From NCBI GenBank assembly GCA_030684475.1, contig JAUXWB010000526.1:1-52112 (forward strand): 52,112 bases of DNA, written 5' to 3'. The notes beneath the pieces are model-generated. The model was not told the origin of the DNA. It saw only the letters and a program-made list of their open reading frames with translations, and ran no database searches. A program made the position numbers and the translations under genes. Source of the DNA: Reyranella sp. GTDB lineage: Bacteria; Pseudomonadota; Alphaproteobacteria; Reyranellales; Reyranellaceae. Shown here piece by piece: positions 32,483 to 50,095 of the stretch (position 1 is its first letter; each line of letters starts with the position of its first letter).

Positions 32483-32492
32483 GACGATCTCC

Positions 32493-34568
32493 TCAGGCAT
32501 CGGCGCGGCGGATGATCAGATTGCCGGCGGCGTCGGCTTCGAAACTGTGCTGCGGCGGCACGACGGTCGTCGAATCCATCTGCAGGATGATGGCGGGTCC
32601 GGAGATGCGTTCGCCGACCGGCAGCAGGTCGCGGCGGTAGAAACCGGTGGAATAGTCGGCGAGCTTGCCCGCAACGCGGAAGGTGCAGGTGCCGCTGCGC
32701 ACGAGGGCGGCTGCCGTCGATCTCGCCGCGCCGGCCGTCGGCTTGGCGATCTTGGCAGCACTGGCCGCACCGACCAGCCGCAGGTTCACGATCTCGATGA
32801 CCGAATCGGCAAAATGGTGGCCGTACTCGCGCTTGTGGATCTCGTGAAAGGCCTCGAAGGCCTTGGCGAGCGAGGCTTCGTCGAGCGCGCCATCGGGGAA
32901 GGGCACGCGCAGCTCATAGCCCTGGCCGACGTACCGAAGATCGCCGCGGCGCTCGAAGGCGACCTTGGCAAGGTCGATGCCGTCCGTAGTGAAGCGCTCC
33001 GCCAGTTCCCTGGCCATCGCCGCGAAGTCGGCGTTGATCCGCCCGAGGTCGGCAGCGCCCGAGACCTGGAACGAGGTGCGGATGGCGTCGTAGCGCAGGT
33101 CGCTTATCAGCAGGCCCACCGCCGAGGTAATGCCGGGATGCGGCGGCACGATGACCTCGGTGACGCCCAGCATCTCGGCCACTTCGGCGCCGTGCAGCGG
33201 CCCCGCGCCGCCGAACGCCACCAGCGTGTAGTGGCGCGGGTCGATGCCCTTCTGGACGGTCCTGGACCGGATGGCGTTGGCCATGTTGGCGTTGATCACG
33301 GTGATCACGCCCTCGGCCGCCTCGCGGTCGGAGAGGCCGAGTTCGCGGGCCAGCTCACCGATGACGCGACGGGCCGCCACTTCGTCGAGCGACATGCCGC
33401 CGCCCAAAAAGTTGCCACCGTCGAGACGGCCCAGCACGACGTTGGCGTCGGTGACGGTGGCGCGGGCGCCGCCGCGGCCGTAGGCAGCGGGGCCCGGCAC
33501 GGCGCCGGCCGAACGCGGGCCGACCTTGAAGGCCCCGGCCTGGTCGACATGGGCAATCGATCCGCCGCCGGCGCCGATGGTGTGGACGTCGATCATCGGC
33601 ACCAGCACCGGGAAGCCCGCGATCCAGGTGTCGCGCGCCGTCGCCTCGCCGAAGCCGCCTTCCGTCACGATGCCGATGTCGGCTGAGGTGCCGCCGACGT
33701 CGAAAGTGATGAGATTGCGCCGGCCCGACAGGCCGCCCGCCCAGTCGCCGCCGATCACGCCCGCCGCCGGCCCCGAGAGCAGGGTGAGGACCGGCCGCTC
33801 GGCCACCATGGCAGGTGTCGCCACGCCGCCGTTCGAGGCCATGATGCGGAGATCGGCCTTGAAGCCCGAGGCCTCGATCTCGAATTCGAGCCGCGTCACG
33901 TAGTTGCGCACCTTGGGCCCGACGAAGGCGTTCATCGCCGTCGTGGTGAAGCGCTCGAACTCGCGGAACTGCGGCGACACCGACGAGGAGGTGGTGGCGA
34001 AGCACGCGGGATATTCCTCGCGCACGATTTCCATGGCGCGCGCCTCGTGGGCCGGGTCGAGATACGAGAACAGGAAGCAGATGGCGATCGCTTCGACGCC
34101 GGCCTCCTTCAGCTCGCGCACGGCCTGGCGCACGCCCTCCTCGTCGAGCGCCTCCAGCACCTCGCCCTTGGGCGGCACCAGCCGTTCCGTCACCGTCTTG
34201 CGGTGGCGGCGCTTGACCAGCGGCCGGTCTTGCCAGGGGATGTCCTGCATGATCGAGTAGTGCTGCGGCCGCTGGTGGCGGCCGATGTGCAGGATGTCGC
34301 GATAGCCGCCGGTGGTGATCATGCCGGTGACGGCGCCGTCGTGCTCGAGGATGGCGTTGGTGGCGATGGTCGTGCCGTGGAACACCGTGTCGATCGTCTC
34401 GCGCGCGATTTCGTACTTGTCGCAGAGCGCCATGAGGCCCTGCACGACGCCGCGCGAGGGGTCGTCCGGTGTGGTCGAGATCTTGTGCACGGCGGTCCGG
34501 CCGGCCTCGGTGTCGGCATAGACCAGGTCGGTAAACGTTCCGCCGACATCGACGCCGATCAATCGCAT
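32493..34568 (-). CDS. hyuA: hydantoinase A/oxoprolinase family protein
   Basis: The HyuA subunit belongs to the ASKHA ATPase fold. The 691-residue protein has the phosphate-binding LIGVDVGGTFTDLVY at the N terminus, LLSGPAAGVIGGDWAG and TFDVGGTSADIGIV in the middle, and FGGAGPLHGAEVAEMLGV later, all typical. ATG 34568 is preceded by GGGAG; the frame to 34622 enters the divergent promoter region. The arrangement hyuA-hyuB, divergent from an ABC importer at 34687, suggests that the pair acts on an imported cyclic amide or a product of its cleavage. Confidence 0.9.
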   Translation of the reverse strand: MRLIGVDVGGTFTDLVYADTEAGRTAVHKISTTPDDPSRGVVQGLMALCDKYEIARETIDTVFHGTTIATNAILEHDGAVTGMITTGGYRDILHIGRHQRPQHYSIMQDIPWQDRPLVKRRHRKTVTERLVPPKGEVLEALDEEGVRQAVRELKEAGVEAIAICFLFSYLDPAHEARAMEIVREEYPACFATTSSSVSPQFREFERFTTTAMNAFVGPKVRNYVTRLEFEIEASGFKADLRIMASNGGVATPAMVAERPVLTLLSGPAAGVIGGDWAGGLSGRRNLITFDVGGTSADIGIVTEGGFGEATARDTWIAGFPVLVPMIDVHTIGAGGGSIAHVDQAGAFKVGPRSAGAVPGPAAYGRGGARATVTDANVVLGRLDGGNFLGGGMSLDEVAARRVIGELARELGLSDREAAEGVITVINANMANAIRSRTVQKGIDPRHYTLVAFGGAGPLHGAEVAEMLGVTEVIVPPHPGITSAVGLLISDLRYDAIRTSFQVSGAADLGRINADFAAMARELAERFTTDGIDLAKVAFERRGDLRYVGQGYELRVPFPDGALDEASLAKAFEAFHEIHKREYGHHFADSVIEIVNLRLVGAASAAKIAKPTAGAARSTAAALVRSGTCTFRVAGKLADYSTGFYRRDLLPVGERISGPAIILQMDSTTVVPPQHSFEADAAGNLIIRRADA

Positions 34569-34593
34569 GCGCTTCGCTCCCTGGGAAATCCCA

Positions 34594-34651
34594 CTGGCCA
34601 AGGTCAGCAAGACTTGCGCCATTGGCCAGAGCTTTTTTCCCCAGATATTTT
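34594..34651. promoter_or_regulatory. inverted repeat and candidate promoter in the divergent region
   Basis: CTGGCCAA (34594-34601) and TTGGCCAG (34622-34629) are perfect 8-bp inverted repeats 28 bp apart centre to centre. They lie between hyuA and the ABC operon. TTGGCC of the right half (34622-34627) could be a -35 with TATTTT (34646-34651) after 18 nt, so a bound regulator would cover the promoter of the plus-strand operon. No regulator gene adjoins it, and the protein that binds is unknown. Confidence 0.45.
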
Positions 34652-34686: not shown

Positions 34687-35706
34687 ATGGCGACCAAGCC
34701 GGACATTGAACTCGTTGCCCTGACCAAGCGCTATGGTGAGGCGGTCGCGGTCGACCGCATCAATCTGCGCATTCCGGCAGGCACCTATTGCTGCCTGTTG
34801 GGCCCCTCCGGCTGCGGCAAGACCACGACCTTGCGCATGATGGCGGGCCACGAGGAGGCGAGCGAGGGCGACGTCATCCTGGGAACCGAGAACATCACGC
34901 GCCTGCCGCCAGCGGCGCGCGGCACGGCCATGATGTTCCAGAGCTACGCCCTGTTTCCGCATCTCGACTGCACCGATAACGTCGCCTTCAGCCTGAAAAT
35001 GCGCGGCGTCGACAAGGATTCCCGCCGGGCGCGTGCACGGGAGATGTTGGGGCGGGTCCAGATGGAACCCTACGCCGGCCGTTTGCCGGCCCAGCTTTCG
35101 GGCGGCCAGCAGCAGCGGGTGGCGCTGGCCCGCGCATTGATCACCGATCCGCAGGTCTTGCTGCTCGACGAGCCGCTGTCGGCACTCGATCCGTTTCTGC
35201 GCGTGAGGATGCGCGAGGAACTGAAGACGCTGCAGACCCGGCTGGGCATCAGCTTCATCCACGTGACGCACAGCCAGGACGAGGCGATGGCGCTGGCCGA
35301 CCTTGTCGTCGTGATGAATCGCGGCAGGATCGAGCAGGCCGGCACGGCACGCGAGGTCTTCAATCGGCCGGCCTCTTCGTTCGTCGCGAAATTCATCGGC
35401 GGCCACAACGTGCTGCCGGCCGCCGTGGCACGCGCCAGGGGAGATGCGCCGTTGGTCGCCATCCGCGCCGATCGCATGACCGTGCAGGCGGGCGTCACGA
35501 CGGAGGCAGGTGCTTCGTCGCTCCAGGGCGTGGCGCGGTCGGTCGAGTACCTCGGCGCGACCGTGCAGGTTGGCGTCGACGTGGCCGGACTCGAGACGCT
35601 GTCGGCCGTGGTGTCGGAGGCGCATTTCGATGCGGCGCCGGTCAGCCCTGGCCAGCCGGTGGTTCTGTCGTGGAGGCCCGAGGACATGCACGTCCTCGGA
35701 CATTGA
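34687..35706 (+). CDS. ABC transporter ATP-binding protein (PotA-like)
   Basis: This cytoplasmic ATPase energises an importer of the spermidine/putrescine/iron-type family. The 339-residue protein has Walker A GPSGCGKTTTLRM, the Q-loop QSYALFPH, the signature LSGGQQQR, Walker B VLLLDEPLSALD and the switch His in HVTHSQDEAMALAD. A C-terminal TOBE domain (about 275-335) is present. ATG 34687 follows GAGGTG; an in-frame ATG at 34663 lacks a ribosome site. It leads the operon ATPase, binding protein, permease, permease. Confidence 0.9.
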   Translation: MATKPDIELVALTKRYGEAVAVDRINLRIPAGTYCCLLGPSGCGKTTTLRMMAGHEEASEGDVILGTENITRLPPAARGTAMMFQSYALFPHLDCTDNVAFSLKMRGVDKDSRRARAREMLGRVQMEPYAGRLPAQLSGGQQQRVALARALITDPQVLLLDEPLSALDPFLRVRMREELKTLQTRLGISFIHVTHSQDEAMALADLVVVMNRGRIEQAGTAREVFNRPASSFVAKFIGGHNVLPAAVARARGDAPLVAIRADRMTVQAGVTTEAGASSLQGVARSVEYLGATVQVGVDVAGLETLSAVVSEAHFDAAPVSPGQPVVLSWRPEDMHVLGH

Positions 35707-35751
35707 GGGGAGGCGGCCCCGCGCCGTCACTGAGTGAAGGAGAACGACGAG

Positions 35752-37041
35752 ATGGCTCCGAAATCGAACGGCGGTGTAGGCCGCCGCAGGATGCTGAAGG
35801 GCGCGGCTGGTGTTGCCGGCGCAGCACTGGGAAGCGGCGTGATCACCGGCTTCCCCGTGATCTGGGCGCAGAACATCAAGAACATCACGCTGCGCCAGTG
35901 CGGCACCGGCGTGTCGGCCATCAACGAGATCGCCGAGAAGTGCAAAGCCGACCTTGGCTTCACCCTGCAGATGACGGCGCTCGATTCGGATGCCGTCGTG
36001 CAGCGCGTGGTGACGCAGCCGAACTCGTTTGACATCGGCGATATCGAATACTGGATGTGCAAGAAGGTCTTCCCGGCCAACACGCTGCAGGCGATGGACG
36101 TCAAGAAGATCAAGTACTTCGACAAGATCGTTCCGATCTTCACCACCGGCAAGCTGAAGCCCGACAGCGTCATTGCCCAAGGCACGGCGCCGAACACGGT
36201 GAGTTTCGTCGAGGGGGCGGGCTCGACCAAGTTCGCCAAGGGCCAGACCGGCTGGTTCACGATGATCCCCACGATCTACAACGCCGACACGCTGGGCATC
36301 CGCCCCGACCTGGTCGGCCGCAAGATCGAGAACTGGAAGGACATCCTCGATCCGAAGTTCAAGGGCAAGACCTCGATCCTGAACATCCCGTCGATCGGCA
36401 TCATGGATGCCGCGATGATCTGCGAGTCGGCGGGCATCGTGAAGTACGGCGACAAGGGCAACATGACCAAGGCGGAAATCGACAAGACCATCGATTTCCT
36501 GATCAAGACCAAGATGGACGGCCAGTTCCGCGCCTTCTGGAAGACTTTCGACGAGTCGGTCAACCTGATGACCTCGGGCGAGGTCGTGATCCAGTCGATG
36601 TGGTCGCCGGCGGTGTCGGCAGTGCGCGCCAAGGGCGTGCCCTGCGTCTATCAGCCACTCAAGGAAGGCTATCGCGCCTGGGGGGGCGGTCTGTCGCTGG
36701 CCAAGCACCTGCAGGGCGCGCAACTCGATGCCGCCTACGAGTACATCAACTGGTACCTGTCGGGCTGGGTCGGCGCGTTCCTGAACCGCCAAGGTTACTA
36801 CTCGGCGGTGCTCGATACGGCCAAGGCCAATATGAGCGCCGACGAGTGGGGCTTCTGGATGGAAGGCAAGCCCGCTCAGGGCGACATCAAGAACCCACAG
36901 GGCGTGGTGGTGGAAAAGAAGGGTGCCGTGCGTGACGGTGGTTCGTTCTACGACCGCATGGGCGCTGTCGCCTGCTGGAACGCCGTGATGGATGAGGACC
37001 GTTACATGGTCCAGAAGTGGAATCAGTTCATCGCCGCCTGA
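35752..37041 (+). CDS. ABC transporter substrate-binding protein (PotD-like)
   Basis: This 429-residue periplasmic binding protein belongs to the extracellular solute-binding family 1/polyamine-like group. It has a Tat signal (GRRRMLKGAAGVAGAALGSG) before the mature NIKNITLRQCG. A PotD-like core follows (FDIGDIEYWMCKKV, SVIAQGTAPNTVSFVEG, PKFKGKTSIL, YEYINWYLSGWVGAFLNRQGYYS). ATG 35752 has AGGAG 8 nt upstream; GTG 35734 is in frame. Polyamine itself is unproven, because the ligand site was not resolved and the neighbours are cyclic-amide enzymes. Confidence 0.88.
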   Translation: MAPKSNGGVGRRRMLKGAAGVAGAALGSGVITGFPVIWAQNIKNITLRQCGTGVSAINEIAEKCKADLGFTLQMTALDSDAVVQRVVTQPNSFDIGDIEYWMCKKVFPANTLQAMDVKKIKYFDKIVPIFTTGKLKPDSVIAQGTAPNTVSFVEGAGSTKFAKGQTGWFTMIPTIYNADTLGIRPDLVGRKIENWKDILDPKFKGKTSILNIPSIGIMDAAMICESAGIVKYGDKGNMTKAEIDKTIDFLIKTKMDGQFRAFWKTFDESVNLMTSGEVVIQSMWSPAVSAVRAKGVPCVYQPLKEGYRAWGGGLSLAKHLQGAQLDAAYEYINWYLSGWVGAFLNRQGYYSAVLDTAKANMSADEWGFWMEGKPAQGDIKNPQGVVVEKKGAVRDGGSFYDRMGAVACWNAVMDEDRYMVQKWNQFIAA

Positions 37042-37092
37042 TCGAAGCAAAGCGTAGAGGAGGGGTGCCGCCGTCGCGGCACCCCGTCTGCG

Positions 37093-37947
37093 ATGTCGCG
37101 CGCCAAAACCTGGATCAGCTACCTGCAGGTCGCACCGCTTGCGTTGGTGTTCCTGCTCTTTCTCGTCGTGCCGATCGCCACGATCGTGGTGGTGAGCTTC
37201 TTCGACTACAACACGACCCAGATCATCCCGGCCTTCATTCTGCAGAATTACGATGAACTGCTGACCTCGCCGGTCACCTGGCGCACCTATCTGCAGACGA
37301 TCGAGTTCGCAGCCATCACCTGGGTGCTGACGCTGGCGATCGGCTTCACGGTCGCCTACTTCCTCGCTTTCCATGTCCGTTCGCCGACGTGGCAGACCGT
37401 CCTGTTTCTGGTGTGCACTATCCCGTTCTGGACATCCAACGTCATCCGCATGATTTCGTGGATCCCGTTCCTCGGGCGCAACGGGCTCGCCAACACGACG
37501 CTCCTGAACCTGGGCTTGATCGATCAGCCGCTGGAGTTCCTGCTCTATTCGGATTTTGCGGTCGTGCTGGCTTACGTCCACCTCTACACGCTGTTCATGG
37601 TGGTGCCGATCTTCAACTCCATGATGCGCATCGACCGCAGCCTGCTCGAGGCGGCGCGCGATGCCGGTGCGTCGGGCTGGCAAACGCTGGTGAACGTCAT
37701 CCTGCCGCTCTGCAAGCCGGGTATTGCCATCGGCTCGATCTTCATCGTCACCATCGTCATGGGCGACTTCGTCACCGTGCGCATGATGAGCGGGGGGCTT
37801 AGTGCCTCGGTGGGCCTGATGATGATGAATGCCATGTCGCTGCTGCAGTATCCCGCTGCGGCCGCCAATGCCGTCGTGCTGCTGCTGGTGGTGCTGTTCA
37901 TCGTTGCGGCCATGATGCGCATGGTCGACATCCGCAAGGAGCTGTGA
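37093..37947 (+). CDS. ABC transporter permease (PotB-like)
   Basis: This 284-residue inner-membrane permease is one half of the importer channel. It has six hydrophobic segments. The cytoplasmic EAA loop reads EAARDAGASGWQTLVNVILPLCKPGI (about 195-220), the docking site for the ATPase. An N-terminal segment enters the membrane at about residues 11-35. It follows the binding-protein gene by about 50 nt and precedes the second permease by 1 nt. Confidence 0.9.
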   Translation: MSRAKTWISYLQVAPLALVFLLFLVVPIATIVVVSFFDYNTTQIIPAFILQNYDELLTSPVTWRTYLQTIEFAAITWVLTLAIGFTVAYFLAFHVRSPTWQTVLFLVCTIPFWTSNVIRMISWIPFLGRNGLANTTLLNLGLIDQPLEFLLYSDFAVVLAYVHLYTLFMVVPIFNSMMRIDRSLLEAARDAGASGWQTLVNVILPLCKPGIAIGSIFIVTIVMGDFVTVRMMSGGLSASVGLMMMNAMSLLQYPAAAANAVVLLLVVLFIVAAMMRMVDIRKEL

Positions 37948-37948
37948 C

Positions 37949-38791
37949 GTGCAGCACGGCAAGCGCGGTCTCGCCTTCTGGCTGCTCGCCGCCTTCTTCG
38001 GCCTGTTCGTGCTGTTCCTCTACGGCCCGACTCTGACCATCCTCGTGCTGTCGTTCCAGGGACCCGCGGGCGGGCTCACCTTCCCGATGAACGGCGTCTC
38101 GGTGCACTGGTTCAAGAACCTGTTCGAGAAACAGATGGTCGGCGACTTTGCCGGTTCCTTCCAGCGCTCGATGATCCTGGGCGTCGCGGTCATGCTGGTG
38201 ACGGTGGTCGTCTCCCTCTCCGCCGGTCTCGCCTTCCGCACGCGTTTCCGTGGCTCCGGTGTCGTCTTCTATCTCGCCATCGCCAGCCTGATCGTGCCGT
38301 CGATCCTGATCAGCCTCGGCATCGGTCTGCTGTTTCGCGTACTGGGCTGGGATCCCGCCTGGTATAGCTCGGCCTTCGGCGCCCACCTGACCTGGACCCT
38401 GCCGTTCGGCCTGCTGATCATGTTCGCGGTCTTCAACCGCTTCGATCGGCGCTACGAAGAGGCAGCGCGCGACCTCGGCGCCACCTCGTGGCAGACGATC
38501 CGGCATGTGGTGATTCCCATCCTGCTGCCGAGCCTCATTGGCGTGGGTCTGTTCGGCTTCACGCTTTCGTATGACGAGTTCGCGCGTAGCCTCTACACGT
38601 CGGGCACCTTCAACACCCTGCCGCTGGAGATCTATGGCATGACCACCAACGTCACGACGCCGGTGCTGTATGCGCTCGGCACCGTGACCACGGGCGTCTC
38701 CTTCGCCGTGATCGCCATTGCCCTGGTGTCGGTGACGTGGCTGCGTCGTCGCCGGGCGCGCCATGGCAGCGACGCCGGCAAGGCGGCCTGA
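37949..38791 (+). CDS. ABC transporter permease (PotC-like)
   Basis: The second channel half, of 280 residues, has six hydrophobic stretches. Its EAA loop is [24 protein letters not shown] (about 170-195). Translation starts with GTG 37949, one base after the preceding stop. Its last 29 nt overlap the next gene, a ring-opening amidohydrolase, so importer and enzyme are almost certainly one transcript. Confidence 0.9.
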
Positions 38792-39854
38792 CGTGGTCCG
38801 TCGGACGCGGCTGCTGCGCCTGCCGACGGCCAGTCCGGGCGACACGGCTGCACTCGCCGCGGCGATCGATGCCGGCGAGGTCGATCCCGCGACCATCGTG
38901 GCCATCATTGGCAAGACCGAGGGCAATGGCTGCGTCAACGATTTCACCCGCGGCTACGCCACGCTCGCCCTGAAGCTGCTGCTGGCCGATAGGCTGAGAT
39001 GCTCGCGGGCGGACATCGAGAAGCGGGTCGCGATCGTGATGTCGGGCGGCACGGAAGGCGGGCTGTCACCACATCTGCTTGTGTTCAGCCGCGAGGCTGC
39101 AACACTGGCGGCGTCCGGGCCGCGGCTGGCCATCGGCGTCGGACTGACACGGCCCTTCGCACCCGAGGAGATCGGCCGCGCGCCACAAGTCGAGGAGACC
39201 GCGGCGGCGGTTGCGCTGGCGATGAAGGATGCCGGTATCGTCCAACCGGCAGATGTTCATTTCGTCCAGATCAAGTGCCCGTTGCTCACCAAGGAGAGGA
39301 TCGAGGAGTCGGCTCGGCGTCGCGCCGTCACGGCGACCGACGACACCTATCATTCGATGGCGTTGTCGCGCGGTGCATCGGCGCTCGGCGTCGCCCTGGC
39401 GCTGGGCGAGGTGAACGGCGCGCCGGAGCAGGCGATCTGCCGCGACTGGTCGCTTTTCTCCAGGGTTGCCAGCACCTCGGCTGGAGTCGAGCTGCTGCGC
39501 AACGAGATCGTGGTGCTGGGCAATGCGCCCGGCTGGGCCAGCGATCTCGTGATCGGTCACGACGTGATGAAGGACGCGATCGATGCCGAGGCTGCCCGTC
39601 GCGTGCTGGCCGGGATCGGCGGCGAGACCGTTGCGGTGCTCGCCAAGGCCGAGGCATCGCCCTCGGGCGAGATTCGTGGCCGGCGGCACACCATGCTGGA
39701 CGACAGCGACATCCACTCGACCCGGCATGTCCGTGCCCTGGTGGGTGGCGTACTGGCCGGCGTGATCGGCGACACGATGCTCTACGTTTCCGGCGGCGCC
39801 GAGCACCAGGGTCCGGCGGGCGGGGGCCCGATCGCGATCATTGGGCGGGTTTGA
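38763..39854 (+). CDS. ring-opening amidohydrolase (cyanuric acid amidohydrolase/barbiturase family)
   Basis: Family enzymes hydrolyse a ring amide in cyanuric acid or barbituric acid using three symmetric Ser-Lys pairs in a Toblerone fold. All three repeats are visible in 363 residues. Lys51 is in IIGKTEGNG and Ser94 in VMSGGTEGG; Lys171 is in QIKCPLLT and the Ser of the second repeat in [13 protein letters not shown] (about 237-239). Lys295 is in [10 protein letters not shown] and Ser343 in [16 protein letters not shown]. The active site therefore looks intact. It overlaps the permease gene by 29 nt. Cyanurate, barbiturate or a related cyclic ureide are all possible substrates. Confidence 0.88.
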
Positions 39855-39876: not shown

Positions 39877-41073
39877 ATGAGCCCATCGGATCCCTACGAA
39901 AGTCTCGGCGTTCGTCGCCGCATCAATGCCGCCGGCGCGCTGACGCGGTTGGGCGGCGCCGTGATGGCGCCTGAAGTGATGGCGGCGATGGCCGCGGCCT
40001 CGCGTGCCTCGGTCGATATCGGCGAACTGCAGGACGCGGCAAGCAATCGTATCGCCGAGGCCACCGGCGCTGAAGCCGGGCTCGTGACCACGGGCGCTGC
40101 GGCGGCGCTCACCCTGGCCGCTGCTGCCTCGATCGCGCGCTGGGACGTGGCCAAGATGGCGGCCCTGCCGCATGCCGACGCGTTCCCGCGCGACATCCTG
40201 ATCCCGCGCACGCACCGCACGGGTTACGCCCACGCCCTGGCGGCTTCCGGCGCCCGGCTGGTCGACATCGGCCACAACGACCGCGGCACCGGCGCCGGCG
40301 TGCGTGGCCTCGAGGCCTGGGAAATCGAGACGGCGCTCACGCCGTCTGTCGTCGCCGTGACCTTCTCGGTCAACGCGACCAGCATCGTCGACCTGCCCAC
40401 CGTCATCGCCGTGTGCCGGGCGAGCGGCGTGCCGTTGATTGTCGATGCCGCCGCTCAACTGCCGCCCAAGGAGAACTTGCGCCGCTTCATCGCCATGGGC
40501 GCGGACCTCGTGGCCTTTTCCGGAGGCAAGGCGCTCGGCGGGCCACAGGCCTCGGGCATTCTCGCTGGTCGCCGCGATCTCGTGGCGTCCGCTCTGTTGC
40601 AGCAACTCGACATGGACGTCGCGCCCGAGACCTGGACGCCGCCCAAGCTGATCGACCGCACCAACCTGCGCGGCGTCCCGCATCACGGCATCGGGCGTGG
40701 CTTCAAGGCGGGCAAGGAGGAGATCGTGGGCCTGCTGACGGCCCTCGATCGCTTCATGAAGGCCGACGATGTGGCGGACAATGCCGCTCTCGAAACCCGT
40801 TTGAAGGCGATCGCCGGGACGCTGGCCGGCATCGATGTCGCCCTGATCCCGGCGCAACGGACCGGGCGCGTGCCGGTGCTCGAAATCGCCGTGCCCGATG
40901 CGCTGGCCATGAGCGCGCGCCTGCAGCGCAACGACCCGCCGGTGCATCTGTCCGAGCGCCACGCCGCGCGCGGCGTGCTGACGCTCGATCCGCAGGTCCT
41001 GCTGCCCGAGCACGACGCGCCGCTCGCGGCGGCGATCCGTGCCGCGCTGCGGGGTGCTACGGTGAAGCCATGA
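39877..41073 (+). CDS. SelA-like PLP-dependent enzyme
   Basis: This 398-residue fold-type I PLP enzyme belongs to the SelA-like branch. The branch also includes lyases of amino acids or amino sugars, such as the D-glucosaminate-6-phosphate ammonia-lyase type. Family features are RRRINAAGALTRLGG near the N terminus, GAEAGLVTTGAAAALTLAAAA, LIVDAAAQLPPKENL and the PLP lysine in LVAFSGGKALGGPQASG (about residue 214). No selB, selD or selenocysteine tRNA is nearby, so true selenocysteine synthesis is unlikely. It overlaps the next gene by 4 nt (ATGA). The reaction is unknown, perhaps an elimination on the ring-opened product. Confidence 0.8.
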   Translation: MSPSDPYESLGVRRRINAAGALTRLGGAVMAPEVMAAMAAASRASVDIGELQDAASNRIAEATGAEAGLVTTGAAAALTLAAAASIARWDVAKMAALPHADAFPRDILIPRTHRTGYAHALAASGARLVDIGHNDRGTGAGVRGLEAWEIETALTPSVVAVTFSVNATSIVDLPTVIAVCRASGVPLIVDAAAQLPPKENLRRFIAMGADLVAFSGGKALGGPQASGILAGRRDLVASALLQQLDMDVAPETWTPPKLIDRTNLRGVPHHGIGRGFKAGKEEIVGLLTALDRFMKADDVADNAALETRLKAIAGTLAGIDVALIPAQRTGRVPVLEIAVPDALAMSARLQRNDPPVHLSERHAARGVLTLDPQVLLPEHDAPLAAAIRAALRGATVKP

Positions 41074-41960
41074 AGCTCGCGAACCATGACCGCTACGACT
41101 ACGTTCCGTTACGCGGCCGGCCCGACTATTCGTGGCCGGGAGGCAAGAAGCTTGCCGTCTACTTCGCCCTCAATCTGGAGCACTTTGCATTCGGCGAGGG
41201 GTTGGGGGCGGAACTGGCACCCGGCGGGCCGCAACCGGACGTGCTGAACTTTGCCTGGCGCGACTGGGGCAACCGGGTGGGCGCCTGGTACCTGCTCGAC
41301 GCGTTCGACGGGCTGCGGCTGCCTATGGCTGCTCTGGTGAACAGCGCGATGTACGACTATGCGCCGCAACTCGTGGCGGCCTGCCGCGCGCGCGGCGACG
41401 AGATCGTCGGCCACGGCCGAACCAACGCGGAGCGGCAGGGCGTTCTCGATGAGGCCGCGGAAGGCGCACTGATCGCCGAAGCAACGGCGAGGGTGGCGAA
41501 GGAGGAGGGGCATCCGCCGCAGGGCTGGCTCGGACCGTGGATTTCGCAGAGCCACTGCACGCCGGACCTGCTGGCCGAAGCCGGCTACGACTATTTGCTC
41601 GACTGGTGCATGGACGACCAGCCGGTCTGGTTCCGCTGCCGGGGCGGCCGGCGGATCCTGGCGGTGCCCTATCCGCAGGAAGCCAACGACATCCCGTCGG
41701 TGGTCGGGCGCAAGGACGGCGCCACGCAGTTCGCCGACATCGTCGTCGACCAGTTCGACGAGATGCTGGAGCTGTCGAAGGCACGTCCGCTCGTCATGGG
41801 CGTGGCGTTGCACGCCTATATCGTTGGCCAACCGCATCGCCTCAAGCATCTCAAGCGCGCTCTGCGCCACATTGCGGCGCATCGCGATGCGATATGGCTG
41901 ACGACACCGGGCGCCATCGCCCGGCATTGCGCAGGCTTGCCGGCACGGATTGTGCCCTAG
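41070..41960 (+). CDS. polysaccharide deacetylase/PuuE-like protein
   Basis: This 296-residue NodB-homology protein resembles the PuuE allantoinase and cyclic-imidase-like group. It has the characteristic N-terminal RYDYVPLRGRPDYSWPGGKKLAVYFALN with the WPGG turn, EIVGHGRTNAE, GWLGPWISQSHCTPDLLAEAGYDYLLDW and a late GVALHAYIVGQPHRLKHL. That layout fits intracellular amide-ring or amidine hydrolysis better than wall-sugar deacetylation. No signal peptide is present. It is translationally coupled to the SelA-like gene (ATGA), so the two enzymes probably serve one pathway. The substrate is inferred only from context. Confidence 0.8.
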   Translation: MKLANHDRYDYVPLRGRPDYSWPGGKKLAVYFALNLEHFAFGEGLGAELAPGGPQPDVLNFAWRDWGNRVGAWYLLDAFDGLRLPMAALVNSAMYDYAPQLVAACRARGDEIVGHGRTNAERQGVLDEAAEGALIAEATARVAKEEGHPPQGWLGPWISQSHCTPDLLAEAGYDYLLDWCMDDQPVWFRCRGGRRILAVPYPQEANDIPSVVGRKDGATQFADIVVDQFDEMLELSKARPLVMGVALHAYIVGQPHRLKHLKRALRHIAAHRDAIWLTTPGAIARHCAGLPARIVP

Positions 41961-41967
41961 GTATGAT
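41937..41967 (+). promoter_or_regulatory. weak promoter candidate before the dpp-type operon
   Basis: TTGCCG (41937-41942) and TATGAT (41962-41967) are spaced by 19 nt, overlapping the 3' end of the deacetylase gene. The -10 matches 5/6; the long spacer lowers confidence. It would allow the downstream importer its own transcription. Confidence 0.3.
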
Positions 41968-42044
41968 GCCGGCGCGCGGCTGTGCTGGACAAGCGTGAGT
42001 GGCGGTCAGCATACTCGCTGCGAAGAGGCTAAGGAGACGTTCGC

Positions 42045-43625
42045 ATGTTGAAGCGCATTTTCGCTGGCGCGTTGGCGCTGGCCGTACCGTTCACGCCAGT
42101 ACAGGCGCAGGAGAAGGTCCTGAAGGCGGTGATGCACGCGGACGTGCGCGTCATCGATCCGGTGTGGACGACGCAAACGATCGCCAACATCCACGGCATG
42201 CTTGTATACGACACGCTGTTCGGCAACGACGCACAAATGAAACCGCAGCCGCAGATGGTCGGCAAGTACGACATCAGCCCGGACAAGCTCACCTACACAT
42301 TCACCCTGCGCGACGGGCTGAAGTTCGGCGACGGCTCGCCGGTTACCACCAAGGACGTCATCGCCTCGCTCAAGCGCTGGGGCCGCAAGGACGGTGTCGG
42401 CATTCGGCTGATGTCGTTCGTCGACAAGCTCGAGGCGGTCGACGACAAGACATTCCGAATGGTCCTTACCAAGCCCTACGGCATGGTGCTGGAGTCGCTC
42501 GGCAAGACCAACTCGTCGGTCGCGGTCATCATGCGTGAGCAGGAAGCGATGACCGATCCCCAACAGCAGGTGAAAGAATCGATCGGCTCCGGGCCGTTCA
42601 ACTTCGCCAAGGACCAGTGGGTGCCGGGCAGCAAGGCGGTCTACGTCAAGAACCCGCACTACGTGCCGCGGCCGGGCAACGAGCCGCCGTCGTCCTTCGC
42701 CGGCACCAAGTTCGCCGGCGTCGACCGGATCGAGCTGCAGTGGATTTCCGATCCGCAGACCGCGATGTCGGCCCTGATCAACGGCGAGATCGACTTCTTC
42801 GAGGCACCCAGCATCGACTTCCTGCCCATCCTCGAGAAGGCGAAGGGCGTCAAGCTGATGAAGACCGGCACGCTCGACAGCACCCACGGCATGATCCGGC
42901 TCAACCATCTCCATCCGCCGTTCGACAATCCCAAGGCACGCCAGGCGATGTACCACCTGATCAACCAGGAGGACTTCCTGCGCGCCATCGTCGGCAATCC
43001 GGCCTACTACCGTGTCTGCCACGGGCTCATCACCTGCGGTTCGCCGCTCGCCAACGACGGCGGCAGCGCCATGCTGAAGGACTACAATCCGAAGAAGGCG
43101 CTGCAGCTCCTGAAGGAGGCCGGCTACAAGGGCGAGCCGATCACCATCCTGCAGGCCACAGATCACGTCACCATCACGCCGGCGACGCAGGTGCTGATCC
43201 AGGCGATGCGCGAGGCGGGCATCAACGTCGATGCCCAGGCGATGGATTGGGGCTCGGTCGTGTCACGGCGTTCCAAGAAGGATCCGCCGGCGCAAGGCGG
43301 CTGGAACATCTTCGTCACCACGACGGGTGGCGTCGGCTCGGCCAATCCGGTGCTCCACACCTGGATCGGCGCGGCCTGCGAAAAGGGCCTGTTCGGCTGG
43401 CCGTGCGATGCCAAGATCGAGGAGCTGCGCAACGCCTTCGCGTTCGCCCAGAGCGACGAGGAGCGCAAGAAGATCGCGACGGAACTGCAGACCCGCGCCA
43501 TCGAGCAGGTGGTCTACATCCCGTTCGGCCAGTGGACGGTGCCGCTCGCCTACCGGGCCGACCGCATCGAGGGCATCGTCCCCAACACCGGCCTCGCGGT
43601 GCTGTGGAACATCAAGAAGAAGTAG
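42045..43625 (+). CDS. dipeptide/oligopeptide-type ABC substrate-binding protein
   Basis: This family-5 periplasmic binding protein of 526 residues has a Sec signal (hydrophobic core to PVQAQ, about residue 22). The typical core is LRDGLKFGDGSPVTTKDVIASLKRW, GSGPFNF and LMKTGTLDSTHGMIRLNHLHPPFDNPKARQAMYHLI, ending with VYIPFGQWTVPLAYR. AAGGAG stands about 8 nt before the ATG. Members carry peptides, opines, nickel, glutathione or other amino compounds, so the ligand is open. It opens a five-gene importer set. Confidence 0.88.
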   Translation: MLKRIFAGALALAVPFTPVQAQEKVLKAVMHADVRVIDPVWTTQTIANIHGMLVYDTLFGNDAQMKPQPQMVGKYDISPDKLTYTFTLRDGLKFGDGSPVTTKDVIASLKRWGRKDGVGIRLMSFVDKLEAVDDKTFRMVLTKPYGMVLESLGKTNSSVAVIMREQEAMTDPQQQVKESIGSGPFNFAKDQWVPGSKAVYVKNPHYVPRPGNEPPSSFAGTKFAGVDRIELQWISDPQTAMSALINGEIDFFEAPSIDFLPILEKAKGVKLMKTGTLDSTHGMIRLNHLHPPFDNPKARQAMYHLINQEDFLRAIVGNPAYYRVCHGLITCGSPLANDGGSAMLKDYNPKKALQLLKEAGYKGEPITILQATDHVTITPATQVLIQAMREAGINVDAQAMDWGSVVSRRSKKDPPAQGGWNIFVTTTGGVGSANPVLHTWIGAACEKGLFGWPCDAKIEELRNAFAFAQSDEERKKIATELQTRAIEQVVYIPFGQWTVPLAYRADRIEGIVPNTGLAVLWNIKKK

Positions 43626-43660
43626 ATGCGTAAACCCGGGCCGGGCGCCGCGCTGACCGC

Positions 43661-44602
43661 ATGACCGCCTACATCGTGCGGCGCCTGTTTGCCACCCTGC
43701 CGGTGATGGCGGTGGTGGCGATCTTCGTCTTTTTCCTGATCCGCTTTGCGCCGGGCGATCCCGCGGCAATCATCGCCGGCGAGGACGCCACGGCGGAGGC
43801 GATCGCCCAGGTGCGCGCCAAGCTCGGCCTCGACCGGCCGTTCATGGAGCAGTTCGTCATCTGGATCCTGCAGATGATGCAGGGCGATCTGGGCGTTTCG
43901 ATCTTCTCCAACCTGCCGGTGAGCCGGCTGATCGTGCAGCGCCTCGAACCCACGGTGGCGCTCACACTCTCGACCCTGTTCGTGGCCGTGGCGCTCGCCA
44001 TTCCGACCGGAGTGCTGGCAGCGTGGAAGGCGCGTAAGCTGGTCGATCGTCTGGTCATGGGCTTTGCCGTGCTGGGCTTCGCCATGCCGGTGTTCGTGCT
44101 GGCCTATATCCTGATCTACTTCTTCGCCGTGCAGTGGCAGCTCCTGCCGGTGCAGGGCTACCGGCCCATTGCCGAGGGTCTTTGGCCGTTCGTCGAGAGC
44201 CTGATCCTGCCCTCGGTGGCGCTGGGCGTCACCTATATGGCGCTGATCGCCCGCATCACCCGGGCCTCGATGCTGGAAGTGCTGGCGCAGGACTACATCC
44301 GCACTGCCAACGCCAAGGGACTCGCCACCGACCGCGTGCTGTTGCTGCATGCGCTGAAGAATGCCGCCGTGCCGATCGTCACCGTGATCGGCATCGGCAT
44401 TGCGCTGCTGATCTCGGGCGTGGTGATCACCGAGACCGTGTTCAATATTCCGGGCCTCGGGCGGCTCACCGTCGACGCCGTCCTGAAGCGCGACTATCCG
44501 GTGGTGCAGGGTCTGATCCTGGTGTTTGCCGCCGCCAAGGTGTTGGTGAACCTGATCATCGACATCTCCTACGCCTTCCTCGATCCGCGCATCCGGTACT
44601 GA
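43661..44602 (+). CDS. dipeptide-type ABC permease (DppB-like)
   Basis: This 313-residue inner-membrane permease starts MTAYIVRRLFATLPVMAVVAIFVFFLIR and continues with the conserved PGDPA segment typical of DppB. The EAA-like loop includes RASMLEVLAQDYIRTANAKGLA, and the C-terminal part reads GVVITETVFNIPGLGRLTVDAV. It is separated from the next permease by 1 nt. Confidence 0.92.
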   Translation: MTAYIVRRLFATLPVMAVVAIFVFFLIRFAPGDPAAIIAGEDATAEAIAQVRAKLGLDRPFMEQFVIWILQMMQGDLGVSIFSNLPVSRLIVQRLEPTVALTLSTLFVAVALAIPTGVLAAWKARKLVDRLVMGFAVLGFAMPVFVLAYILIYFFAVQWQLLPVQGYRPIAEGLWPFVESLILPSVALGVTYMALIARITRASMLEVLAQDYIRTANAKGLATDRVLLLHALKNAAVPIVTVIGIGIALLISGVVITETVFNIPGLGRLTVDAVLKRDYPVVQGLILVFAAAKVLVNLIIDISYAFLDPRIRY

Positions 44603-44603
44603 C

Positions 44604-45469
44604 ATGGCCGTTATCACCGACGACCTCGTCCTGTCGCCGCGCCGCTTCTCGCTGTGGACCGCCATCCGGCGCAACCCCACGATCGCCTTCGGTGGCATCC
44701 TTCTCTTGGCATTGATCGCCGTCGCCGTCGTGGGACCGTCCTTCGTTGGCGACCCGTTCAAGCTCTCGCCGGTCAATCGGCTGAGGCCGCCGTCGGAGCG
44801 CTGGTGGTTCGGCACCGACCAGTTCGGACGCGACGTGTTCACCCGCACCGTTTACGGCGCCCGCGTGTCGCTGTTCGTCGGCCTCTCGGTCGCAGCCTTT
44901 TCCAGCCTGCTCGGGCTCGCCCTCGGCCTGTTGTGCGGCTACTTCCGCCGGGTTGACGCCATCGTCATGCGCATCATGGACGGGCTGATGGCGATTCCCT
45001 CGATCCTGCTCGCCATCGCCCTGATCACGCTGACGCGGCCCGGTCTTGGCATCGTGATCGTGGCCATCGTCATTCCCGAGGTGCCGCGCATCGTGCGCGT
45101 GGTGCGCGCCGTTGTGCTGTCGATCCGCAGCCAGCCCTACATCGAAAGCGCCATCGCCGGCGGCACCAAGAACACCAAGCTGCTGCTACGCCATGTCCTG
45201 CCCAATGCCCTGGCACCGTTGATCGTGCAGTCGACCTACGTTTGTGCCTCGGCAATGCTGATCGAAGCCGGCCTGAGCTTTCTCGGCGCCGGCGTGCCGC
45301 CGGAAGTGCCGAGCTGGGGCAACATCATCGCCCAGGGCCGCACCTTCTTTCAGATCGCGCCGTGGACGATCCTGATTCCCGGCACCTTCCTCGCCATCAC
45401 CGTGCTGGCCGTGAACCTGCTGGGCGATGGCCTGCGCGACCGGCTCGATCCGCGGCTGGCGAGGCGGCT

Positions 45470-45473
<4 letters not shown>
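44604..45473 (+). CDS. dipeptide-type ABC permease (DppC-like)
   Basis: The second permease, of 289 residues, has the DppC N-terminal cytoplasmic part ([14 protein letters not shown]) and the conserved [25 protein letters not shown] loop of [29 protein letters not shown] and [19 protein letters not shown] follow. Its stop overlaps the ATG of the following ATPase by 4 nt. Confidence 0.92.
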
Positions 45474-46482
<1,009 letters not shown>

Positions 46483-46486
<4 letters not shown>

Positions 46487-47496
46487 CGACGGAACGCCCG
46501 GTCCTCGAGGTTGAAGGCCTCGTCAAGCATTTCCCCATCCACGGCGGCCTGTTGCAGCGGCGTGTCGGCGAGGTGAGGGCGGTCGATGGCGTTTCCTTCT
46601 CGATCGCCCGCGGTGAGACGCTGGGCCTGGTGGGCGAATCGGGTTGCGGCAAGTCGACCATCGGCAAGACGGTGCTGAAACTGGTCGAGCCCACCGCCGG
46701 GCGCATCGTGCTGGCGGGCGAGGACATCTCTTCACTCAAGCCCGGTGCCATGTGGCCGCACCGCCGCCGCATCCAGACGATCTTCCAGGATCCCTACTCG
46801 TCGATGAACCCGCGCCTGCCCTCGGGCACGATCGTGGGCGAGCCGCTGGAGAATTTCGGCCTCTCGAGCGGCCGCGACACCGACGAGCGCGTCGCTCGCC
46901 TGTTCGAGCGCGTCGGGCTGCGGCCTGATGCGATGCGCAAGTACGCCCACGAGTTCTCCGGCGGCCAGCGCCAGCGGCTGGGCATCGCCAAGGCCCTGGC
47001 GGTCAATCCCGACGTGATCGTGGCCGACGAGCCGGTCTCGGCGCTCGACGTCTCGGTGCAGGCGCAGGTGCTGAACCTGCTGATCGACCTGCAGGAGGAA
47101 TTCCGGCTCGCCTATCTCTTCATCAGCCACGATCTCGCGGTGATGCGCCACATCAGCCACCGCATCGCGGTGATGTATCTCGGCCGCATCGTCGAACTCA
47201 CGACCAAGCGCACGTTGTTCACGCAGCCGCTGCATCCCTACACCGAGGCGCTGCTGTCGGCCGCCACCGCGCCCGATCCCAGGCGCCGCCGCCAGAAGAA
47301 GCGCATCGTCCAGGGCGACGTGCCGAGCCCGGCCAATCCGCCGCCGGGCTGTCACTTCCACACGCGCTGCCCCTACGCGATGCCCGAATGCAAGGCCACG
47401 GCACCGCCGCTGATCGAGGTGGCCGAAGGCCATCACGTCGCCTGCCTGCGCCGTCCCGTCGGTGGTGACCCGGGGCCGCTGTCGATCCTGGGTTAG
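46483..47496 (+). CDS. dipeptide-type ABC ATP-binding protein (DppF-like)
   Basis: The second ATPase of the importer, of 337 residues, has Walker [14 protein letters not shown]-loop [12 protein letters not shown], signature [12 protein letters not shown] and Walker [13 protein letters not shown]. It carries the Cys-rich C-terminal domain [15 protein letters not shown]. It is the last gene of the set and ends 7 nt before the stop of the convergent GST-like gene. No terminator hairpin was clear. Confidence 0.92.
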
Positions 47497-48137: not shown

Positions 48138-49334
48138 CTAGGACCGCCGCGCGCCGGGCGCCGTGTCGCGGAGATAGCTCAGCGCCGCCTGCACGCCGCC
48201 CACCTTGTGCGGCACCTTGGCGAGGCCCAGCGCCATCTCGACGCCCGAGAGCGCCCCCATCAGCATCAGGTCGTTGAAATCGCCGAGATGGCCGATGCGG
48301 AACACCTTGCCCGCGACCTTGCTGAGGCCCTGGCCCAGCGACAGGTTGAAGTTCTCCAGCGCCACCTTGCGGAAGGCGTCGGCGTCGTGACCCTCCGGCA
48401 TCATGATCGCCGTCAACGATCCAGAGTAGGCTTTGGTGTCGCTGCACAGGATTTCGAGGCCCCAGGCGGTGACGGCGGCGCGCGTCGCTTCGGCGTGGCG
48501 CGTGTGGCGGGCGAAGACGGAGTTGAGTCCTTCCTCCAGCAGCATGTCGCAGGCCTCGCTGAGCCCATAGATCAGGTTGGTGGCGGGCGTGTAGGGGAAC
48601 CAGCCGTTGGCGTTGGCCGCGAGCATCTCCTCCCAGTTCCAGAAGGCGCGCGGCGTGTTGGCGCTCTTCGAGGCGGCCAACGCCTTCTCGCTGATGGCGT
48701 TGAAGGAAAGACCGGGCGGCAGCATCAGGCCTTTCTGCGAGCCTGCGACCGTGACGTCGACGCCCCAGGCGTCATGGCGATAGTCGATCGAGCCCAGCGA
48801 CGAGATCGTGTCGACCAGCAGCAGGGCAGGGTGCTTGGCGGCATCGATGGCCTGGCGCACCGCGCTCACATCGGTCACGACGCCGGTCGAGGTCTCGTTG
48901 TGGACGATGCACACGGCCTTGATGGCGTGGGCCTTGTCCTCCTTGAGGCGCTTCTCGATCGCCGCGGGATCCGCGGGCTGGCGCCAGTCGCCGCCCAGGA
49001 ACTCCGACTTGATGCCGAGCTTGTCGGCCATCTTCTTCCACAGCGAGGCGAAGTGGCCGGTCTCCCACATCAGCACCGTGTCGCCGGCCGACAGCGTATT
49101 CACGAGGGCTGCCTCCCACGCGCCGGTGCCGGAGGCGGGGTAGATGATGACCGGCTGCTTGGTCTGGAAGACCTGGCGGACGCTGCGCAGCACCTTCTTG
49201 GCCAGCGCGTTGAACTCGGGCCCGCGATGATCGATCGTCGGGTGATCCATCGCCCGCAGGATCCGGTCGGGGACGTTGGTTGGGCCGGGGATTTGCAGGA
49301 AGTGCCGTCCGCTGGGATGGGAGTTCAGGCGCAT
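48138..49334 (-). CDS. serine-glyoxylate-type aminotransferase
   Basis: This class V PLP aminotransferase of 398 residues resembles serine-glyoxylate and alanine-glyoxylate aminotransferases, which make glycine from glyoxylate. Visible features are the N-terminal FLQIPGPTNVPDRILRAM and HRGPEF, VIIYPASGTGAWEAALVNTL (cofactor phosphate region), the PLP lysine in VAGSQKGLMLPPG (about 200) and the C-terminal FRIGHLGDFNDLML. ATG 49334 follows AAAGGG; upstream frame residues overlap the regulator region. A palindrome at 49367 lies in its promoter region, shared with the divergent GntR gene. Confidence 0.85.
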   Translation of the reverse strand: MRLNSHPSGRHFLQIPGPTNVPDRILRAMDHPTIDHRGPEFNALAKKVLRSVRQVFQTKQPVIIYPASGTGAWEAALVNTLSAGDTVLMWETGHFASLWKKMADKLGIKSEFLGGDWRQPADPAAIEKRLKEDKAHAIKAVCIVHNETSTGVVTDVSAVRQAIDAAKHPALLLVDTISSLGSIDYRHDAWGVDVTVAGSQKGLMLPPGLSFNAISEKALAASKSANTPRAFWNWEEMLAANANGWFPYTPATNLIYGLSEACDMLLEEGLNSVFARHTRHAEATRAAVTAWGLEILCSDTKAYSGSLTAIMMPEGHDADAFRKVALENFNLSLGQGLSKVAGKVFRIGHLGDFNDLMLMGALSGVEMALGLAKVPHKVGGVQAALSYLRDTAPGARRS

Positions 49335-49399: not shown

Positions 49400-50095
49400 A
49401 TGGACGGCTCAAATCTCCCTATCGCGCGCCTGACCCTGCCCGAAGCGGCGGCGGAGCGGCTGCGCACCCTGATCATCGAAGGCGTGCTGGTGCCGGGCGC
49501 CAAGCTGAACGAACGCGAACTCTGCGAGCGGCTGGGCGTGTCGCGCACGCCGCTGCGCGAGGCCTTCCGCATGCTGGCGGGCGACGGGCTGCTGGTCCAG
49601 TTGCCCAACCGCGGCGCCCAGGTCGTGGCGTTGTCGCGCGACGACGTTCGCCACGCCTTCGAGCTGATGGCCGCCCTCGAGGGGCTGGCAGGTGAACTCG
49701 CTGTCCAGCGCGTGACGGACCGCGACATTGCGGACCTCGGCGGCCTGCAGATCGAGATGGAAGCCGCGCACACGCGCCACGACCTGCCGGCCTATTATGC
49801 GATCAATCGCACGATTCACGATCGCCTCAATGCCATTGCCGCCAACCCGATCCTCACCCACGCTTTTCGCACGCTCAACGCGCGCCTGCATGCGCTCAGG
49901 TTCCGCTCGAACCTCAACCGCGCCAAATGGGACCAGGCCGTGGCCGAACATCGCGACATGATCGCGGCCCTTGCCGCGCGCGACGGTGCCGCGCTACGTG
50001 ATCTGCTGGTTCGCCATCTGCGCGCCAAGCAGCAGGCGGTCCTCGAGACGATGGACAACGAGGAAGCTCCGGATAGAGCAAGCACAAGCACATGA
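49400..50095 (+). CDS. GntR-family transcriptional regulator (FadR/FCD type)
   Basis: This 231-residue regulator has an N-terminal winged helix (about 15-80: AAAERLRTLIIEGVLVPGAKLNERELCERLGVSRTPLREA, LLVQLPNRGAQVV). The C-terminal FCD ligand domain carries typical metal-site residues (YAINRTIHDRL, AEHRDMIAALAARD). Start ATG 49400 is the likely one, since the frame begins earlier inside the operator. It overlaps the next gene by 4 nt. Members often sense organic acids such as glycolate, lactate or their derivatives, which suits the FAD dehydrogenase and the aminotransferase. Confidence 0.88.
   Translation: MDGSNLPIARLTLPEAAAERLRTLIIEGVLVPGAKLNERELCERLGVSRTPLREAFRMLAGDGLLVQLPNRGAQVVALSRDDVRHAFELMAALEGLAGELAVQRVTDRDIADLGGLQIEMEAAHTRHDLPAYYAINRTIHDRLNAIAANPILTHAFRTLNARLHALRFRSNLNRAKWDQAVAEHRDMIAALAARDGAALRDLLVRHLRAKQQAVLETMDNEEAPDRASTST

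Follow-up and report, generated by a model that had tools for sequence, protein, structure and literature searches.

Does the overlap of two genes in a Reyranella metagenome-assembled genome (MAG) mark two enzymes that act in succession on one nitrogen compound and, if so, on what kind of compound? We addressed this question for a stretch of 52,112 nucleotides (nt), analysed whole and called the window here, in which the gene for a SelA-like enzyme dependent on pyridoxal 5'-phosphate (PLP) (39877–41073, + strand, 398 amino acids) and that for a PuuE-like hydrolase of the NodB fold (41070–41960, + strand, 296 amino acids), each with an ATG start, share the four nucleotides ATGA at the 3' end of the former and the start of the latter. 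Both open reading frames and the junction, GTGAAGCCATGAAGCTC, were verified as a preliminary description had reported them, and the conservation of the two proteins throughout the order (68–92% identity for the SelA-like orthologues, apart from truncated copies and a partial one at 62%, and 73–96% for the PuuE-like ones) shows that they are real genes. The genes, their overlap, the folds, the clade, the residue patterns and the neighbourhoods described here were all computed. We tentatively propose that they form a two-step catabolic pair, in which the hydrolase would unmask an amino acid and the PLP enzyme would deaminate it.

The PLP enzyme groups with DgaE and Cap15 rather than with SelA, considering both its sequence matches and its fold. 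Its best PDB sequence matches are DgaE (7lc0, E 1.8e-35), Cap15 (8t7j, 5.1e-31) and then SelA (8uzw, 2.6e-8), and the structure model (mean predicted local distance difference test score, pLDDT, 80.9; residues 1–28 unreliable) matches Cap15 with Z 35.6, DgaE with Z 34.9, SelA with Z ~25 and threonine aldolases with Z ~22. The SelA-likeness of the gene is thereby borne out, and so is the view that it acts outside selenium metabolism: the protein reaches 46.8 bits with the SelA model TIGR00474 against a cut-off of 267.9, and genuine SelA is encoded elsewhere in both of the relatives tested (556 bits in G013 and 561 bits in G053, same cut-off). SelA sensu stricto was rejected as an identification, the score lying under the curated cut-off. 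With the DgaE models the scores are 159.7 against 600 (NF047797) and 152 against 385.3 (TIGR01437). In a tree of 80 rows, made by a quick method with Shimodaira–Hasegawa-like approximate likelihood ratio test (SH-aLRT) supports after Reyranella had been thinned and four loci duplicating named ones dropped, the enzyme falls in a separate clade of 62 rows (support 87; 99 for a core of 42 rows). DgaE and Cap15 stand together (89) inside a group of ten (94) apart from this clade, and SelA is on a separate branch (100); DgaE, Cap15 and others are long-branched, hence their exact placement is unsure. A genome scan found at least 565 relatives of the PLP enzyme, among them matches in alpha- and betaproteobacteria and in MAGs labelled Bryobacterales, Latescibacterota and, in one case, a Nitrososphaerales archaeon, where misbinning is possible; a scan of viral contigs found no relative. 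Neither the PDB sequence search nor our searches of the openly licensed literature yielded a close homologue with a demonstrated reaction.

Which substrate such an enzyme would accept is indicated by the residues that its clade keeps and those that it has lost. Among the 92 of 96 clade members surveyed (360–520 amino acids, with many duplicates and nearly identical Reyranella sequences among them, which makes the counts non-independent), the PLP-binding Lys218 as well as Asp190, Arg274, Lys277 and Lys280 are invariant in all 92. Excerpts of PMC9529869 assign to DgaE, whose substrate is the D-amino acid D-glucosaminate-6-phosphate, a carboxylate-binding Arg226, a proton donor (His-163) and a phosphate-binding cluster (Arg301, Arg332 and Arg346). 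The Arg226 position (232 in the window enzyme, where it is Arg) carries Arg in 82 of the 92 members and Lys in nine. At the three phosphate-arginine positions, where Cap15 has Arg as well, the window enzyme has V334, S359 and Q373. Since the PLP-site residues and the carboxylate Arg/Lys position are kept, the substrate is likely, as judged from the alignment, to be an α-amino acid; because the DgaE phosphate arginines are replaced, it should be a non-phosphorylated one. These residues leave the reaction unfixed. The clade has near-invariant residues of its own (Arg24, Asp135, Arg143, Leu195-Pro196-Pro197, Gln224, Asp245 and Asp247). DgaE itself was rejected as an identification, both on the cut-offs and on the residues, namely the phosphate arginines and the loss of the loop that carries the proton-donor histidine.

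Two other fates of an amino acid in this active site have to be weighed against deamination. The enzyme might be a Cap15-like oxygenase that turns an α-amino acid and O2 into a carboxamide and CO2, the amide then being cleaved by the partner hydrolases. Cap15 ties with DgaE as the nearest structure, amide hydrolases as partners would suit such a product, and excerpts of PMC6384614 and PMC6411801 describe Cap15 as a decarboxylase that depends on PLP and O2, forms an amide and shows no detectable activity in its Lys262 and Lys265 Ala mutants; these lysines align with Lys277 and Lys280 of the window enzyme. Both lysines are found in DgaE too, however, and are hence non-diagnostic, whereas the three arginines and the loop histidine common to DgaE and Cap15 are missing from the window enzyme. 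Cap15 moreover groups with DgaE and not with the window clade, albeit with both on long branches, and the diaminopropionate ammonia-lyase gene found beside one relative suits deamination better than oxygenation; we therefore consider an oxygenase very unlikely. Slightly less improbable, though still quite unlikely, is that the PLP enzyme works on the freed amino acid as a racemase, an epimerase or an aldolase. In the structural ranking threonine aldolases come directly below SelA, and loss of the DgaE proton-donor loop would suit a different fate of the quinonoid intermediate, but nothing supports a racemase or aldolase directly and the nearest sequence relatives are a lyase and an oxygenase.

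The partner is a PuuE-like protein of the NodB fold, as the preliminary description had it. Its PDB sequence matches are to PuuE, it matched no Pfam family at E 0.01, and the best structural match of its model (mean pLDDT 75) is the PuuE allantoinase 3cl6 (Z 27.5, root-mean-square deviation 2.7 over 276 residues, 25% identity). Inspection of the N-terminus, MKLANHDRYDYVPLRGRPDYSW, by eye revealed no signal peptide (no prediction program was run). The alignment with 3cl6 has the stretches NxE, HG, DDxP, PY...ND and LH...GxPxR in common; the strings TFDD and FDDG, which are typical of metal-binding NodB enzymes, were searched for in the protein and are absent. Allantoinase was rejected as its identity, since the score with the PuuE allantoinase model TIGR03212 (of equivalog-domain type) is 115.8 bits, under the curated cut-off of 424.6. 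PuuE-like proteins are numerous in genomes of the order, with ten matches in the window genome (G000).

The neighbours of relatives of the PLP enzyme were surveyed as well. Outside the genus, neighbours were counted at 56 distinct loci, which remained from 67 after removals and the merging of duplicates; the loci come from the best 80 of the relatives found, not from a random sample. Three Reyranella loci (L181, L184 and L204) were excluded and four others (L130, L132, L198 and L210) dropped because the custom gene caller gave no SelA-like call, while four that may belong to other genera of the same family (L171, L172, L173 and L180) were kept. For most kinds of neighbour, one or two representatives were checked against families or structures, the others being labelled by clustering. 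A labelled hydrolase lies in the same-strand run at 27 loci and anywhere in the fetched locus at 30; by kind, the same-strand runs contain M81 at 14, a deacetylase-type amidohydrolase at ten, a DoeB-like protein at seven, a C–N hydrolase at four, a PuuE-like protein at three and gamma-glutamyltransferase (GGT) at two. The M81 neighbour matches microcystinase C (E 3e-115); the amidohydrolase, which we take to belong to cog3964, scores 381.5 at L186 against the NF006689 cut-off of 371 and matches 2ogj at L182 (1e-53); the DoeB-like neighbour stays below the DoeB cut-off (286.9 against 402.7); and the C–N hydrolase of L123 matches structures of N-carbamoyl-D-amino-acid hydrolase (5.4e-123). Dpp-type genes are the commonest labelled neighbours, with a Dpp gene in the same-strand run at 18 loci (DppD/F 17, DppC 16, DppB 14, DppA 12). 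The same runs hold genes of the RidA superfamily (4; matching PF14588 and PF01042), UxuA-like genes (4), short-chain dehydrogenase genes (4, named by eye), DgaE-family genes (3) and one diaminopropionate ammonia-lyase gene. At the start of each of the loci L182, L187, L189 and L190 a second, DgaE-family-like PLP gene precedes the Dpp genes within the cluster that holds the SelA-like gene; that of L187 scores 304.2 bits against 385.3.

Several of these hydrolase genes are joined to the PLP gene as tightly as in the window. The junction from the SelA-like gene to the deacetylase-type amidohydrolase gene is −4 nt in eight of ten cases, and that from M81 to the SelA-like gene is −4 nt in two of four. 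The PuuE-like genes follow at −8 (L178), −8 (L179) and +80 nt (L177); in these three MAGs the PuuE protein is ~31% identical to that of the window, which makes it a second PuuE type among the neighbours of this clade, and HyuA/HyuB genes are again divergent (36–38% identical to the window's). Considering how far both sets of proteins diverge from those of the window, the pairing of this PLP clade with a PuuE-type hydrolase may, by sequence comparison, have arisen more than once. A further search for SelA–PuuE pairs at E 1e-60 in the class and order of G457 (369 and 399 genomes) returned G457 alone.

Within the order, 76 genomes were surveyed, 65 of them in the genus Reyranella, and orthologues of the SelA-like, PuuE-like and AtzD proteins (the last encoded just upstream, see below) were found in 50, 63 and 47. 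These counts omit fragmentary AtzD matches (G015, G042) and the 45% AtzD copy of G034, fragmentary SelA-like matches (G041) and a second, partial SelA-like copy at 62% in G034, PuuE copies below 73% identity and M81 copies below 79%; truncated SelA-like copies (G025, G026, G048 and G056) were scored present. The relative G013 has the SelA-like, PuuE-like and M81 genes, whereas AtzD gave no match there. In the genus, 42 of the 43 genomes with the SelA-like gene have a PuuE orthologue, which is present in 14 of the 22 genomes without one (both, first only, second only, neither: 42/1/14/8; Fisher p 4e-4, the tests throughout ignoring phylogeny, and incomplete MAGs inflating absences). The corresponding figures are 39/4/9/13 for SelA-like and M81 (p 3.5e-5) and 34/9/11/11 for SelA-like and AtzD (p 0.02; order-wide p 0.14). 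When the count is confined to the 48 genus genomes with a completeness of 90% or more, they are 31/0/11/6 for PuuE (p 0.001), 30/1/7/10 for M81 (p 2.7e-5) and 24/7/8/9 for AtzD (p 0.054).

Position tells less uniformly for the pair. Where both genes lie on one contig they are directly adjacent (<20 nt) in three of 32 cases (G000, G071 and G044) and separated by 987–7986 nt in the other 29, with a further ATP-binding cassette importer on the opposite strand in between at the loci read. The preliminary description had tied its proposal of consecutive steps to the two genes staying together in relatives; because adjacency is found in 3/32 and yet co-presence in 42/43, that expectation holds by half, and successive steps with a C–N hydrolase are plausible because the same PLP clade also overlaps or abuts hydrolases of unrelated folds. 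These figures also bear on the possibility that the overlap is an incidental product of operon drift and the two enzymes belong to unrelated pathways. The scarcity of adjacency, the loss of the SelA-like gene in a sister genome (G017) and the expansion of the PuuE-like family would suit drift; against it, the SelA-like gene is nearly nested within PuuE-positive genomes, all three adjacent cases (the window, L163 of G044 and L168 of G071), from two genera, have the identical −4 nt overlap, and the second PuuE type recurs beside the same PLP clade. We consider drift unlikely, though less so than the alternative chemistries discussed above.

The two-step catabolic pair that we favour would work as follows. 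A Dpp-type importer would supply a modified amino acid, of which the PuuE-like hydrolase, probably cytoplasmic, would cleave a C–N bond (a ureido or an acyl amide bond). The freed α-amino acid, perhaps of D-configuration, would pass to the PLP enzyme, where it would form the external aldimine at Lys218 and then, most probably, undergo α,β-elimination to a 2-oxo acid and ammonia, in a DgaE-like reaction on a non-phosphorylated substrate. In other bacteria the place of the hydrolase may be taken by M81, by the deacetylase-type amidohydrolase, by the other PuuE subfamily or by an N-carbamoyl-D-amino-acid hydrolase. We infer that the hydrolase unmasks the substrate of the PLP enzyme because one PLP clade occurs with alternative C–N hydrolases, some of them overlapping it; the D-configuration is suggested, by analogy, by the DgaE precedent and the carbamoylase neighbours, and elimination by DgaE and, weakly, by the RidA-superfamily and diaminopropionate-lyase neighbours. 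The order of the steps and the transport are likewise inferred.

A number of observations weigh against this proposal. The loop holding His-162 and His-163 of DgaE is a gap in 91 of the 92 clade members, the window enzyme included, and with the proton donor deleted elimination lacks direct support; the RidA-like neighbours match no NCBIfam model, so that an enamine-deaminase role for them is unsure, and the basis for a D-amino acid is the DgaE precedent plus a few carbamoylase loci. The pair is separable, given that adjacency is uncommon and that in G017, a close sister, AtzD and PuuE are kept but there is no SelA-like match; 14 genus genomes in all hold PuuE without the SelA-like gene. No labelled hydrolase stands in the same-strand run of 29 of the 56 outside loci, nor anywhere in the fetched locus in 26, although in some of these the end of the locus was reached or a gene is unlabelled. 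The eight −4 nt amidohydrolase overlaps all belong to one betaproteobacterial subclade (11 tree rows, support 100) and may be a single event, and both M81 overlaps come from two genomes of one genus, so that the overlaps amount to few independent events. Finally, the M81 (MlrC-like) gene that lies between PuuE and DppA in the relatives read (L074 15333–16805; L086 5841–7313) is missing from the interval 41960–42045 of the window, as it is from that between PuuE and DppA in G017, and the best M81 copy in the incomplete source genome (a Reyranella MAG of 5.6 Mb in 550 contigs, 85% complete with 6.6% contamination) is 46% identical.

Could the substrate instead come from a ring-opening enzyme encoded next door? 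Ending 22 nt before the SelA-like gene, and left out of the preliminary description, is a gene of the AtzD/TrzD family (38763–39854, + strand, alternative start 38793), whose product scores 518.7 bits against the equivalog cut-off of 360 for cyanuric acid amidohydrolase, has 6bum as its closest PDB match (E 3.4e-134) and holds the Ser-Lys-Arg motifs, including S239/K171/R203, in alignment with 6bum (the Arg of the third domain judged by motif alone). Barbiturase was rejected, since Arg occupies the position of Arg188 at which, according to excerpts of PMC4051656, Gln marks that enzyme. AtzD, the PLP enzyme and the PuuE-like protein might thus form one pathway degrading cyanuric acid or a barbiturate-type ring: AtzD lies ≤90 nt upstream of the SelA-like gene in 24 of 33 same-contig genomes, its motifs are kept, the divergent HyuA/HyuB genes upstream, like AtzD itself, would fit a ureide substrate for the pair, and the source genome encodes an allophanate hydrolase (755.5 bits). 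That enzyme is encoded on another contig (C8), however, where inspection of its surroundings by eye revealed no biuret gene (a biuret hydrolase was not searched for). Cyanuric acid and biuret are not α-amino acids, and none of the labelled neighbours at the 56 outside loci is AtzD. We have marked the single pathway down to the least probable of the readings considered, since in the genus nine genomes hold the SelA-like gene without AtzD and 11 the reverse, the genes being gained and lost separately. The AtzD gene, its presence weakly linked to that of the SelA-like gene, gives the impression of a module only loosely associated with the pair, with cyanuric acid ring opening probably a separate nitrogen-scavenging function. 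In G017 the gap between AtzD and PuuE is 73 nt and finishes, just ahead of the PuuE start, in bases (L078 5599–5673) that by eye resemble the end of the window SelA-like gene, as would a remnant of a lost copy.

The remaining genes of the window cluster are largely concerned with transport. Directly downstream of the PuuE-like gene are five genes of a Dpp/Opp-type peptide ATP-binding cassette (ABC) importer (42045–47496, + strand), and upstream is a Pot-like ABC importer (34687–38791, + strand: ATPase, binding protein and two permeases), the last gene of which overlaps or abuts the AtzD gene; all members of both fall below the equivalog cut-offs. HyuB and HyuA, N-methylhydantoinase/caprolactamase-like, are encoded divergently (30689–34622, − strand), HyuA being near N-methylhydantoinase (E 5.8e-201). 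Beside the cluster lie a class V aminotransferase gene resembling BhcA (48138–49334, − strand; 472.8 bits against a cut-off of 650), a GntR-type regulator gene (49400–50095, + strand) and a gene for a GlcD/YdiJ-like FAD–FeS oxidoreductase (50092–52110, + strand), which possibly form a glyoxylate or hydroxy-acid outlet.

Taken more broadly, the clade may be an unrecognised family of PLP enzymes for (D-)amino acids, served by Dpp or by tripartite ATP-independent periplasmic (TRAP) importers and carrying out a reaction that is neither that of DgaE nor that of Cap15, a view that we hold as doubtful. With equal reserve, its interchangeable amide and ureide hydrolases would comprise the PuuE-like, deacetylase-type amidohydrolase and M81 proteins, N-carbamoyl-D-amino-acid hydrolase and HyuAB. 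If true, this would define a modular route for N-masked non-protein amino acids. The folds and enzyme types are already known; this clade, marked by invariant residues of its own and by hydrolase partners that vary, was not found in the openly licensed literature, where the terms that we used returned nothing on the SelA-like/PuuE-like pair or on the PLP clade. The SelA-type fold of the clade members carries a risk of their being mistaken for selenium enzymes, and the swaps of hydrolases around one PLP enzyme point to a testable substrate class, N-masked and perhaps D-amino acids.

Compared with known systems, the window enzyme shares with DgaE the fold and the positions of the PLP lysine, the Asp, Arg226, Arg242, Lys245 and Lys248, and differs in the deleted histidine loop, in V334/S359/Q373 and in residues that are its clade's own (Arg24, Arg143, Leu195-Pro196-Pro197, Gln224, Asp245 and Asp247). 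With Cap15 (8t7j), a PLP-dependent monooxygenase-decarboxylase, it has the fold, the PLP lysine and the Lys262 and Lys265 positions in common but not the loop histidine and arginines that link Cap15 to DgaE; moreover, Cap15 has antibiotic genes as its context, whereas the window enzyme stands beside importers and hydrolases. SelA is a distant relative in fold, on its own branch. The window hydrolase has the NodB fold of the PuuE allantoinase 3cl6 and is set apart from it by its score with the allantoinase model. The AtzD/TrzD gene (6bum), above its cut-off and with its motifs kept, sits between the ABC importer genes and the SelA-like/PuuE-like genes, and the usual atzDGEHF-type order is not seen around it. 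Beside DgaE and Cap15, the clade offers a further branch in which to study how one fold controls PLP chemistry.

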